Origin: a bacterium
GTDB lineage: Bacteria; Bacillota_I; Bacilli_A; RFN20; DUOZ01
Length of the DNA: 34,118 nt
Reading direction: 5' to 3'
Assembly (NCBI GenBank): GCA_012838555.1
Contig: DUOZ01000062.1
Span: 1 to 34,118, forward strand
Shown: piece after piece, positions 4,323 to 12,043 of the stretch
Layout of the letters: every line of letters starts with the position of its first letter
How positions within the stretch are numbered: the first letter of the stretch is position 1
Notes under the pieces: model-generated
The model's input: the letters and a program-made list of their open reading frames with translations, nothing else
Database searches by the model: none
What the model was told of the DNA's origin: nothing
Translations under genes and position numbers: made by a program

Positions 4323-5143
4323 AAAATTGATTTATCAAGATCAAATATTTTAACAAAATGATAAGCAAGTCCTGCATCAACGCAAGATTTTTCAGTGATT
4401 TGATCAGCGACTTCTTTTAAATCCTCAGAAGCATTAGCCATTGCTATTCCAATATTGGCTATTTTTAAAAGTTCAATATCATTAGGTGCATCACCTATAG
4501 CAATAATATCTTCTTGACTAATATTTAGTTTTTTGGCTACTTTTAAGATAGCATTTCCTTTATTAATATCTTTAGGAAAGATTTCGGCAAATGTTACAAA
4601 ACTATTTGACCAGAATCGACATATATAATCCGGATAGTTTTTATTTACATAATCAAGAACAATTTGATTATAGTCACTTGATTTAGTTTCTATAATAATT
4701 GTTGTTGGATTTGTTTTTAAAACATCCTTCATGTCTCCTATAAAAACATCAGCTTTATCACGCCAAAAGAAACCTTCAAGTGTTTTTTCATCATGTTTTA
4801 AATAGACTTGGTCCTCTAACTCACACATAATATTAGTTAAATAATCACTTAAGTTATTTTCCAAATCTAAAATCATATTTAATGGAATAGAAACAGCATC
4901 CACTTCAAATCCTTTATCAGTTGGATGATGGATATATGAACCATTATAGTTACAAACAGGCGTTGTTAGTTTTAATGTTTCATAAAATTCTTTAGTTGAC
5001 CTCCAAGGTCTTCCTGTAGCGATAACAACATAATGACCTAAAGAAACTAAATAATCAACCACTCTTATATTAAGAGGATGAATACTAGTTCTCGTATCAA
5101 GAGTTGTTCCATCTAAATCAATTGCAATTAACTTTTTCTTCAT
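4313..5143 (-). CDS. Cof-type HAD-IIB family hydrolase
   Basis: LIAIDLDGTTLDTRTSI, VIATGRPW, INKGNAILKVAKKL, IAIGDAPNDIELLKIANIGIAMANA. Confidence 0.93.
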   Translation of the reverse strand: MKKKLIAIDLDGTTLDTRTSIHPLNIRVVDYLVSLGHYVVIATGRPWRSTKEFYETLKLTTPVCNYNGSYIHHPTDKGFEVDAVSIPLNMILDLENNLSDYLTNIMCELEDQVYLKHDEKTLEGFFWRDKADVFIGDMKDVLKTNPTTIIIETKSSDYNQIVLDYVNKNYPDYICRFWSNSFVTFAEIFPKDINKGNAILKVAKKLNISQEDIIAIGDAPNDIELLKIANIGIAMANASEDLKEVADQITEKSCVDAGLAYHFVKIFDLDKSILND

Positions 5144-8829: not shown

Positions 8830-9177
8830 ATGACTGCAAATATTTATATTATAATTGGTGTAGTGGTCTTATTTTTAGCTGCAATTGTTACAACTATAAT
8901 AGTCATTAGTGTTAGTTCTAATAAGAAAAAGAAAGGCATTAGTGAAGCTAATGTTGAAAATTTTATTGCTGCTGCAGGTGGTTTAAATAACATTCAAAAA
9001 GCAACATTTAATCATTCTCGATTACAACTTTTCGTTGATGACCCAAATTTAATTGACTCTGATGCATTTAAGAGTTTAGGCGCTACCGGTGTAGTTAAAT
9101 CAGGACAAAAAGTTACTATTATCGTCGGAAGATTAAGTCAAGATATCGCTATGTATATTAACAATAGGCTTAAGTAA
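8830..9177 (+). CDS. Membrane-anchored PTS EIIB-like (glucose-type fold) domain protein
   Basis: N-terminal TM helix, then IAAAGGLNNIQKATFNHSRLQLFVDDPNLIDSDAFKSLGATGVVKSGQKVTIIVG, matching the EIIB pattern GGxxNI...TRLRL.VxDxxxVD...LKxLGAxGVV, without the active-site Cys. Confidence 0.75.
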   Translation: MTANIYIIIGVVVLFLAAIVTTIIVISVSSNKKKKGISEANVENFIAAAGGLNNIQKATFNHSRLQLFVDDPNLIDSDAFKSLGATGVVKSGQKVTIIVGRLSQDIAMYINNRLK

Positions 9178-9227: not shown

Positions 9228-9259
9228 AAAAAAATAGGTAATCAATACCTATTTTTTTT
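9228..9259. terminator. Bidirectional intrinsic terminator
   Basis: AAAAAATAGGT-AATCAAT-ACCTATTTTTTTT. Confidence 0.8.
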
Positions 9260-9285: not shown

Positions 9286-9678
9286 TTAACGATAGTAATA
9301 AGGATACCTTCTCCTTGGTCTAAAATAACCGTAATTATAATAACCATAATAATACGGTGAATAGAAAGGATAGGAATATGGATAATAATATGGATAATAA
9401 GGTCTTGCTAATGAAGCTCCTAATAGTCCACCGATTAGTAATGGAATAACTCTTTCTTCATTTTCTTTAGTTGTAGGTTGAGCGTAACTAAATCCACCTT
9501 GAGGTAAGGTTGGTTGATTAAACGGATACATAGGATATGGTTGTCCTATATTTTGAGTTGGGAATGGTTGAGTAGCAAATGAAGGTTGACAAGTGCCTCC
9601 TGAACAACCACAACTAGTTCCCATTGGCGGCTCCATTGTATAATCAAATGGATTTGAGTACATTAATTCTTCATTCAT
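9286..9678 (-). CDS. Pro/Tyr-rich, probable spore coat protein
   Basis: PYYPYYYPYSYPFYSPYYYGYYNYGYFRPRRRYPYYYR tail, CGCSGGTC N-terminal segment, SD AAGGAGG 8 nt before ATG at 9678, sporulation-type -10 upstream. Confidence 0.6.
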   Translation of the reverse strand: MNEELMYSNPFDYTMEPPMGTSCGCSGGTCQPSFATQPFPTQNIGQPYPMYPFNQPTLPQGGFSYAQPTTKENEERVIPLLIGGLLGASLARPYYPYYYPYSYPFYSPYYYGYYNYGYFRPRRRYPYYYR

Positions 9679-9682
9679 GATA

Positions 9683-9721
9683 AAAGCCTCCTTCACATTT
9701 TATAGTATGCAAGGAGGCTTT
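9683..9721 (-). terminator. 11-bp hairpin: terminator for maf read-through, sequesters the SD of the downstream gene
   Basis: AAAGCCTCCTT (9721-9711) / AAGGAGGCTTT (9693-9683), 17-nt loop, followed by T; 3' arm contains the SD. Confidence 0.8.
9694..9710 (-). promoter_or_regulatory. Candidate late-sporulation (sigmaK-like) -10 element in the hairpin loop
   Basis: GCATACTATA matches gCATAnnnTa; an AC dinucleotide lies 16 nt upstream. Confidence 0.5.
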
Positions 9722-9732
9722 AAGGGTTACAT

Positions 9733-10287
9733 TTAACTAATTTTTTTGAGAATTCGATTGATTCTTGAAATCGGAAGACCTACTACATTGTAAAAATCAC
9801 CATTGATTTTTTTAACTAATGAACTTCCTTTTCCTTGGATGCCATAAGCTCCAGCTTTATCCAAAGGTTCTTTTGAATTAATATATTCCCAGATTTCTTC
9901 ATCTCTAAGATCATGGAAGTAAACAGTAGTTTTTTCCACAAAGTTGTAAACTTTATTTTTCTTAATGATACATACACCTGTAGCAACATAATGTTTTTTA
10001 ACATCGCTTAAATACTTTAACATCTTGTATGCATCATTTTCATCTATAGGTTTATTTAAAACTTTATCATTTACATATACGATTGTATCTGCAGCTAAAA
10101 TAATATCATCAGGATAACTTTCTTTAACTGAATTAGCTTTACAATAAGCGAGTTTTTTAACTAATTCAAGCGGATCATTTTCTTTGATACTATTTTCATC
10201 AAAATAACTTGTTACAACTTTAAAATTATACCCATATAAAGCGAGTAATTCTCTTCTTCTTGGAGATTTTGAGGCTAATACTAACAT
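9733..10287 (-). CDS. maf: Maf family nucleotide pyrophosphatase
   Basis: LVLASKSPRRRELLALYG, ILAADTIVYVNDKVLNKP, YGIQGKGS. Confidence 0.95.
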   Translation of the reverse strand: MLVLASKSPRRRELLALYGYNFKVVTSYFDENSIKENDPLELVKKLAYCKANSVKESYPDDIILAADTIVYVNDKVLNKPIDENDAYKMLKYLSDVKKHYVATGVCIIKKNKVYNFVEKTTVYFHDLRDEEIWEYINSKEPLDKAGAYGIQGKGSSLVKKINGDFYNVVGLPISRINRILKKIS

Positions 10288-10288
10288 A

Positions 10289-12043
10289 TTAAATACTACG
10301 CTTTCTTCCTCTTTTTACTGGTTTAATTGTTTCAAAGAAATCATTACTTAAAATTAGTGTATCATGGTGTTCGATTTTATTCATTAATACAGGTATAATC
10401 ATTGGATTTCTTCTCGATTTTTGATAAAAGAAATTACCGATAACATTTCTAATTGTATTTTTAATATCAGAGAATGTTACTTTATCTTTAAATAATTCTT
10501 TTAGAGCATTATCAATTAATGTTGTAGCCTGTAATAATAACTCATCATTTTCTTTAAAGTGCATAAATCCACGACTTACAATTGATGGTGAACAAAGTAA
10601 TTTATTGTTTCTTGAATCCATGCTGACTAAAACAGCGACAAGACCATCATTACCTAGATTTCTTCTATCTCTAATAACTGCAGTTGATAAACCACTTGAA
10701 TCATTACCATCGACATAAATATCATCTGTATCGATTCTCTTACCAGGTCTTACAACGCCATTATTTAATAATAAACTATCACCATTAGATAGAATAAAGA
10801 TGTTTTCTAATGGTACACCTACTTCATTAGCAATATCTGCATGAAGCTTTTGCATTCGATATTCACCATGAACTGGCATGAAATATTTCGGTTTTGCAAT
10901 TTTAATTAATAATTTTTGTTCATCTTGAGAAGCATGCCCTGTAGCATGGATATTACTTAATATTGAGTTAGTAATAACAACGGCTCCACTTCTAGTTAAC
11001 AAGTTAATAACTTTGTTAACACTTGTTGTATTTCCAGGGATTGGACTAGAAGAGAAGACAACGGTATCACCGGGCATAATTTTTAAATATCGGTGTTGGT
11101 CTTGAGCAATACGAGATAGTGCTGCAAGAGGTTCACCTTGTGAGCCAGTACATAAAATTAAAATTTCATCATTTCGAGCATATTTAATCGTTTCTGGTGT
11201 TAAGAAATAACTATCAGGGCAGACAATATAACCTGCTTCTCTACCCATTTGGACAGTTTTTTCCATTGAACGACCAACAACGACAATTTTACGTTTATAT
11301 AAAACAGCAGCTTCAATAATTTGCTGAATTCTATTAATGTTTGAAGCAAAAGTAGCAATTATTAGACGTCCTGGTGCATTTCTAAAAATCTCATTAATTG
11401 ATTTAATAACATTTTGCTCACTTTTCGAGTAACCTTCAACTTCTGCATTTGTTGAGTCACTTAAAAGTAAATCAATACCTTCTTCACCAAGTTTTGCTAA
11501 TTTATGAATATTGAAATCTGGACCAACAGGAGTTAAATCGATTTTAAAGTCCCCTGTGGTAACAACTCTTCCATTTGGTGTATCTACACAAATACCAAAA
11601 GCATCAGGTATTGAGTGAGTAACTCTAAAGAATTTAACACTTAAATCTTTAACCGTAATGACTTTATCTTCAGTTATTTCTTCAATAATTGTTTTGTCTT
11701 TTAAACGATGTTCTTCTAATTTTTTTCTAATTAAAGACGCAGCTAGTCTAGGAGCATAAATTTTAGGAACACGTATTTTCTGTAATAAGAAAGGAATTCC
11801 ACCAATATGGTCTTCATGACCATGGGTAATAAATAAAGCCTTGACTTTAAATTGATTCCTTACTAAATATGAATAATCAGGAATGACATAGTCAATGCCC
11901 GGTAAATCAGATTCAGGGAATTTAGCACCTGAATCAATAATAATTAAACTATCTTCGTATTCGATACAGTACATGTTCTTTCCAACTTCGCCTAGTCCAC
12001 CCAAAGCAAAAATTGCTGTGTCTGATCTCAAAGCATAATCCAT
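10289..12043 (-). CDS. rnj: Ribonuclease J
   Basis: ALGGLGEVGKNMYCIEY, FITHGHEDHIGGIPFLL (HxHxDH), LLSDSTNAEVEGYSKSE, PVHGEYRM. Confidence 0.95.
   Translation of the reverse strand: MDYALRSDTAIFALGGLGEVGKNMYCIEYEDSLIIIDSGAKFPESDLPGIDYVIPDYSYLVRNQFKVKALFITHGHEDHIGGIPFLLQKIRVPKIYAPRLAASLIRKKLEEHRLKDKTIIEEITEDKVITVKDLSVKFFRVTHSIPDAFGICVDTPNGRVVTTGDFKIDLTPVGPDFNIHKLAKLGEEGIDLLLSDSTNAEVEGYSKSEQNVIKSINEIFRNAPGRLIIATFASNINRIQQIIEAAVLYKRKIVVVGRSMEKTVQMGREAGYIVCPDSYFLTPETIKYARNDEILILCTGSQGEPLAALSRIAQDQHRYLKIMPGDTVVFSSSPIPGNTTSVNKVINLLTRSGAVVITNSILSNIHATGHASQDEQKLLIKIAKPKYFMPVHGEYRMQKLHADIANEVGVPLENIFILSNGDSLLLNNGVVRPGKRIDTDDIYVDGNDSSGLSTAVIRDRRNLGNDGLVAVLVSMDSRNNKLLCSPSIVSRGFMHFKENDELLLQATTLIDNALKELFKDKVTFSDIKNTIRNVIGNFFYQKSRRNPMIIPVLMNKIEHHDTLILSNDFFETIKPVKRGRKRSI

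Follow-up and report, generated by a model that had tools for sequence, protein, structure and literature searches.

At the junction between maf and a Pro/Tyr-rich, coat-like gene in the window (the whole 34,118-nt stretch of DNA that was analysed), the SD of the coat-like gene forms the 3' arm of a hairpin whose two arms enclose a sporulation-type -10 sequence, and this arrangement is conserved, with covarying arms, in the order to which the source organism belongs. The element probably works as a developmental insulator that would shield a late sporulation gene from the vegetative rnj-maf operon. RNA entering from maf would fold into a hairpin of 11-15 bp and would in part terminate at the T-tract; in RNA that reads past the hairpin, the SD would be paired and translation would be poor. 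In the mother cell, the sigma-K (or sigma-E) polymerase would use AC-N16-CATACTATA, with its -10 between the arms, and the resulting short RNA from about 9694 would lack the 5' arm, retain the complete SD within its leader of about 16 nt, and be translated. The features are as follows.

10289..12043, minus strand: rnj, ribonuclease J, ending 1 nt before maf (Pfam RNase_J domains)
9733..10287, minus strand: maf, Maf-like pyrophosphatase, the upstream co-directional housekeeping gene (Pfam PF02545, E 7e-60; maf-coat order conserved)
9726..9727, minus strand: AC, spaced 16 nt from the -10, a putative -35 element for sigma-K (sequence; homologues)
9711..9721, minus strand: 5' arm AAAGCCTCCTT, anti-SD, predicted only in read-through RNA (sequence, folding, covariation)
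9701..9709, minus strand: CATACTATA, a -10 of the sigma-K/E type, partly in the upper stem and partly in the loop (sequence; conservation)
9694, minus strand: predicted start of transcription, about 7 nt downstream of the -10 (from the -10 position)
9683..9693, minus strand: 3' arm AAGGAGGCTTT, containing the SD AAGGAGG at 9693-9687 (sequence, folding)
9682..9685, minus strand: short T-tract TTTT at the stem end, terminator-like (sequence)
9286..9678, minus strand: Pro/Tyr-rich coat-like protein, 130 aa (homologues; sigma-E/K co-occurrence)
9229..9259, no strand assigned: ordinary bidirectional terminator-like hairpin past the coat-like gene, AAAAAAATAGGTA..TACCTATTTTTTT (sequence)

From the maf stop codon (TAA, 9735-9733), the minus strand continues ... 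AAC-CCTT-AAAGCCTCCTT-G-CATACTATA-AAATGTG-AAGGAGGCTTT-TATC-ATG, where the ATG at 9678 is the start codon of the coat-like gene. The arms are perfect inverted repeats (9721-9711 and 9693-9683, 11 of 11 nt complementary) with 17 nt between them, and on re-reading the sequence every letter and coordinate given in the initial annotation for the arms, SD, ATG, -10 and AC was correct. Its further statement that the -10 lies in the loop holds in part: CATACTATA is indeed between the arms, but RNA folding extends the stem by the 4 bp GCAU/AUGU with one bulged G, so that part of the CATA box is in the upper stem and the true loop is the 8 nt ACUAUAAA. The predicted fold has an energy of -19.3 kcal/mol (z -5.3), and none of the shuffles folds as well. 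In computed ensembles the SD core is paired with a probability near 1 in read-through RNA (unpaired about 0), and is open with a probability of 0.3-0.9 in RNA from the predicted start at 9694. The proposal that read-through from maf hides the SD is borne out at the level of prediction.

The hairpin is exceptional within the source genome. The pattern CCTCCTT-N(3-33)-AAGGAGG occurs a single time in 1.63 Mb, and the junction ranks first for SD-sequestering pairing among 431 gene starts with an SD, sampled from script-called genes in 620 kb (about 38% of the genome). In the same sample, strong SD hairpins (-14 kcal/mol or below) number 10, compared to about 3 in shuffles, a moderate enrichment.

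Comparison within the order provides the main evidence that the structure has been maintained. Of the 26 genomes whose leader was read, 25 have the coat-like gene immediately after maf, in families f1, f3, f4, f5-g34 and f8; in the one exception (G016, L210), maf was not found upstream of it. The SD can be sequestered at -10 kcal/mol or below in 22 of these 25 maf-coat leaders, versus 10% of the 431 genes of the source genome, and in 3 of 14 coat homologues located elsewhere than behind maf. The SD is itself the 3' arm in nearly all 25, for example in L154 (AAAACCTCC-CATACATTATCTTA-GGAGGTTTTTTTATG), L157 (AAAACCTCATAGACTAAGTCTAGGAGGTTTTTATATG), L178 (TACCTCTTAAA-TTACATATGATAT-TTTAGGAGGTA-TTTTTTATG) and L209 (AAATCTCCTAGT-GCATAAATTAA-ACTAGGAGGTTTTTTATG). 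Pairing of the SD is weak in three leaders (L136, L152 and L205), which counts against the insulator reading.

The arms also covary. When 5' and 3' arms were swapped among 21 non-redundant leaders, the cognate arms summed to -283.1 kcal/mol and the permuted arms to -211.7 (sd 8.4); the best of 100,000 permutations reached -250.5, and none matched the cognate arms. Pairs +3, +4, -4 and -5, which lie outside the SD core, switch type yet still pair in 18, 19, 20 and 15 of the 21 leaders (12.5, 11.0, 10.1 and 7.8 expected with swapped arms), although these pair-by-pair counts are biased towards structure because the 5' anchor was picked for best pairing. At +3 and +4 the compensatory types include AT, GC, TA and CG. 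The arm-swap test, which uses the same windows for all leaders, is the fairer of the two, and kinship is left in both. The hairpin proposed in the initial annotation is thus real and kept in the maf-coat context, usually with a T-tract, and both the anatomy of that model and selection on it are well supported by these comparisons.

The sequence between the arms agrees with what is known of sigma-K promoters. Published boxes are AC and CATA-type (PMC3789822), with spacing taken from PMC517825, and AC-N16-CATACTATA has both the CATAnnnTA -10 and an AC within the 14-17 nt expected; unlike other sigma-K promoters, the one here is set inside a terminator-like hairpin. A single CATAnnnTA match is not significantly enriched upstream of genes in the source genome (30 versus 23.7 expected), and so the promoter claim rests on conservation. 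CATAnnnTA is found within 45 nt of the start codon in 16 of 25 maf-coat leaders and 13 of 14 other homologues (29 of 39 together), and in 12 of 302 control genes of the source genome. Of the 25 maf-coat leaders, 22 have CATA enclosed by the arms or within the upper stem; its absence from L136, L142 and L164 counts against the insulator reading. CATA occupies the same place in homologues that have no hairpin.

The putative -35 element is less uniform. AC-N16-CATA is present in 9 of the 14 homologues not behind maf, and an AC at 15-17 nt is found in 9 of those 14 and in the window, but in only 3 of 25 maf-coat leaders; the AC is missing from most family f3 leaders, which also counts against the insulator reading. 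The f3 maf-coat leaders (for example L150, L154 and L157) have a CATA-type -10 without AC, and perhaps use sigma-E or an activator. Between the end of the -10 and the start codon there are 22 nt in the window, a similar 18-23 nt in the f12, f17 and f23 homologues, and more (29-32 nt) in those of f14. A strong hairpin is absent from most f12, f17 and f23 homologues. Since the hairpin-less homologues keep the promoter, the promoter is the more widely distributed part, and the hairpin is for the most part confined to genes behind maf. An insulator would predict this pattern, but in most f12 and f23 homologues, too, a co-directional gene (about 300 aa) lies in front, and the f14 homologues have a divergent neighbour. 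The sporulation promoter sequence suggested in the initial annotation is conserved both in homologues that have the hairpin and in those that lack it.

In the same window, the coat gene ylbD (14335, plus strand) has AC-N16-CATATGATA just upstream, a clean sigma-K-type promoter. Inspected by eye, this gene has no SD hairpin, and the notion that every sigma-K gene here uses such hairpins was rejected.

The sporulation sigma factors that the model requires are present in the source genome. There are two sigma-E/K-like genes (C109 and C151); sigK at C109 scores 282 bits, under the curated cut-off of 298.65, a threshold that B. subtilis also fails to reach in the six-frame search. A further sigma gene follows directly on the one at C151 and is assigned to sigG from its position and N-terminus; C82 and C114 carry genes of the sigma-70 family, probably sigF and sigA, respectively. 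Because of this set of sigma genes, the source organism is very probably a spore former. Among 59 genomes of the order that were searched for both (sigma-E/K at E <= 1e-40), the coat-like gene is present in 21 of 21 that have sigma-E/K and in 0 of 38 that do not. Five of five further genomes with the gene also have sigma-K, and four of these belong to a family whose other sampled members lack it. In the genomes tested, the coat-like gene is therefore restricted to spore formers. Where sigma-E/K is lacking, maf has no coat-like gene after it, and L168 and L169 have a plain terminator behind maf.

Homologues of the 130-aa protein were found both in other families of the order and more widely in the class; the protein itself matched neither Pfam nor NCBIfam models, including any named coat family. 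The designation "coat gene" in the initial annotation thus gains from the association with sigma-E/K genomes and finds no backing in a named family; composition and this association together suggest a coat function. The window also encodes ylbD (PF14071 coat) and a ylbJ-like gene whose match is below cut-off. At 8830-9177 (plus strand) there is a lone EIIB-like PTS domain after a transmembrane helix.

The terminator aspect is the weakest in the window itself. A run of at least four T follows the SD in 18 of 24 maf-coat leaders and in 9 of 246 genes, and in most relatives the element shares with intrinsic terminators an A-rich, GC-containing stem and then a T-run. The element differs from them in three respects: a promoter -10 lies between its arms, its 3' arm is the SD, and the window has only 4 T. 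A simple terminator scan of the window made no call at the hairpin (4 T, loop of 8, a bulge; stem GC-containing). The hairpin begins 11 nt past the maf stop codon, which speaks against the model: when tested in E. coli, terminators less than about 27 nt away from a stop codon were repressed by ribosomes (PMC4824070). With a hairpin so near the maf stop and only 4 T, partial termination backed by SD occlusion is a reasonable reading. Of the three roles combined in the initial annotation (terminator, insulator and promoter), the conserved anatomy favours the combination, and the terminator is the weak member in the window. In L135 and L147 (family f8), the maf stop codon is within the hairpin, in the loop in L135 and in the SD in L147; the model is weakened there because maf ribosomes would open the hairpin. 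The regulatory stem encodes the C-terminal tail of Maf in these two leaders.

One might ask whether hiding of the SD has any function. If the junction were only compact, with an intrinsic terminator for rnj-maf, a tightly packed coat gene, and the SD and promoter inside the hairpin by economy, SD occlusion would be functionless. The T-runs in 18 of 24 leaders fit this explanation, as does the ordinary terminator at the equivalent site in two sisters without the coat gene. However, a terminator a few bases upstream would suffice, and yet the 3' arm is nearly always the SD itself; moreover, in L142 the SD is hidden by a 14-bp stem that no T-tract follows. We consider this explanation unlikely. 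That the whole arrangement is a chance by-product, with GGAGG and CATAnnnTA each required anyway and CCTCC arising by drift or as part of the 3' end of maf, might be argued from the single 7-bp SD hairpins of several relatives. It is contradicted already by the comparative data (0 of 100,000 permutations in the arm-swap test), as well as by the fold z-score of -5.3 and the first rank among 431 gene starts, and we give it almost no credence.

The hairpin could alternatively serve for translational tuning: with a promoter further upstream in maf, all coat mRNA would carry the hairpin, which would dampen expression or sense some condition. The B. subtilis sigG mRNA does itself have a second, small hairpin of such a kind (PMC5942855). 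Nonetheless, with so stable a stem hardly any translation would be possible, and the position of CATA, enclosed by the arms or within the upper stem in 22 of 25 leaders, is the same in homologues that have no hairpin; we consider tuning very unlikely. As for a riboswitch or other known Rfam RNA, the only hit was Phe_leader, whose 21.6 bits fall short of the gathering score of 55, and this candidate was rejected.

The insulator reading has close precedents. In phage T4, gene e and I-TevI combine an SD-hiding leader hairpin with a stage-specific promoter (PMC3014915, PMC2988022). In the T4 genes e (lysozyme), I-TevI, soc and segB, and in Aeh1 mobE, early read-through RNA hides the SD, as is proposed here, and a stage-specific promoter at the 5' strand gives a shorter, translated RNA without the hairpin. 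The corresponding feature here is a conserved promoter sequence 3' of the 5' arm, from which the start would follow. The phage cases use a late promoter, whereas a sporulation sigma factor would act here; they are described as translational control, without the T-tract that makes the present hairpin terminator-like; and the element described here is chromosomal and conserved across bacterial families.

In B. subtilis, a read-through hairpin is proposed to block translation from spoIIGA-sigE to sigG (PMC5942855). There too, a sporulation gene follows an earlier-expressed gene, and RNA from its own promoter cannot form the hairpin. The B. subtilis hairpin is 20+ bp long, uses a sigma-F/G promoter and lies between two sporulation genes; here, in contrast, what precedes the coat-like gene is a housekeeping operon, and the arms enclose the -10. 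The principle is therefore known. Judged from the literature searched, what appears to be new is that a whole order of bacteria has kept the design and that it is joined to a terminator.

Related hairpins are found at other junctions in the order. At the sigE-sigG junction of the source genome (L074, about 1150-1191; G000 C151), an SD-hiding hairpin has GGGAAAACT, a sigma-F/G-like -10, over its 5' arm. The sigG SD hairpin is also present in eight relatives (L216-L218, L220, L221, L224, L225 and L232) and is not universal, being absent in L223, L227, L233 and L234. A SpoVID-like gene (PF20918; SPOCS plus LysM) on the minus strand of L052, with its start at reverse-strand position 4582, has an SD hairpin with the arms AAACCCTC..GAGGGTTT, also given as AAAACCCTC...GAGGGTTTTTT. 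The SpoVID model TIGR02907 was dropped as a second test gene, its matches being mainly short and C-terminal. Separately, five contigs of G030 have five copies of the palindrome CCTCCTTTCACTTA(A/T)TACGAAGGAGG. A device of about 40 bp combining terminator, SD lid and developmental promoter may be order-wide, used also at sigE-sigG and the SpoVID-like gene, and serve small genomes as a general wall against vegetative or earlier transcription; we advance this tentatively, at somewhat less than even likelihood.

If the insulator reading is true, a timing trick of phage T4 would be a conserved and evolving part of bacterial development, and a single short sequence would combine termination, translational silencing and a promoter. 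The hairpin may provide a signature for locating late sporulation genes in uncultured Bacilli, and the Pro/Tyr-rich family is a candidate family of coat proteins, whose presence follows that of sigma-E/K in all genomes of the order that were tested.
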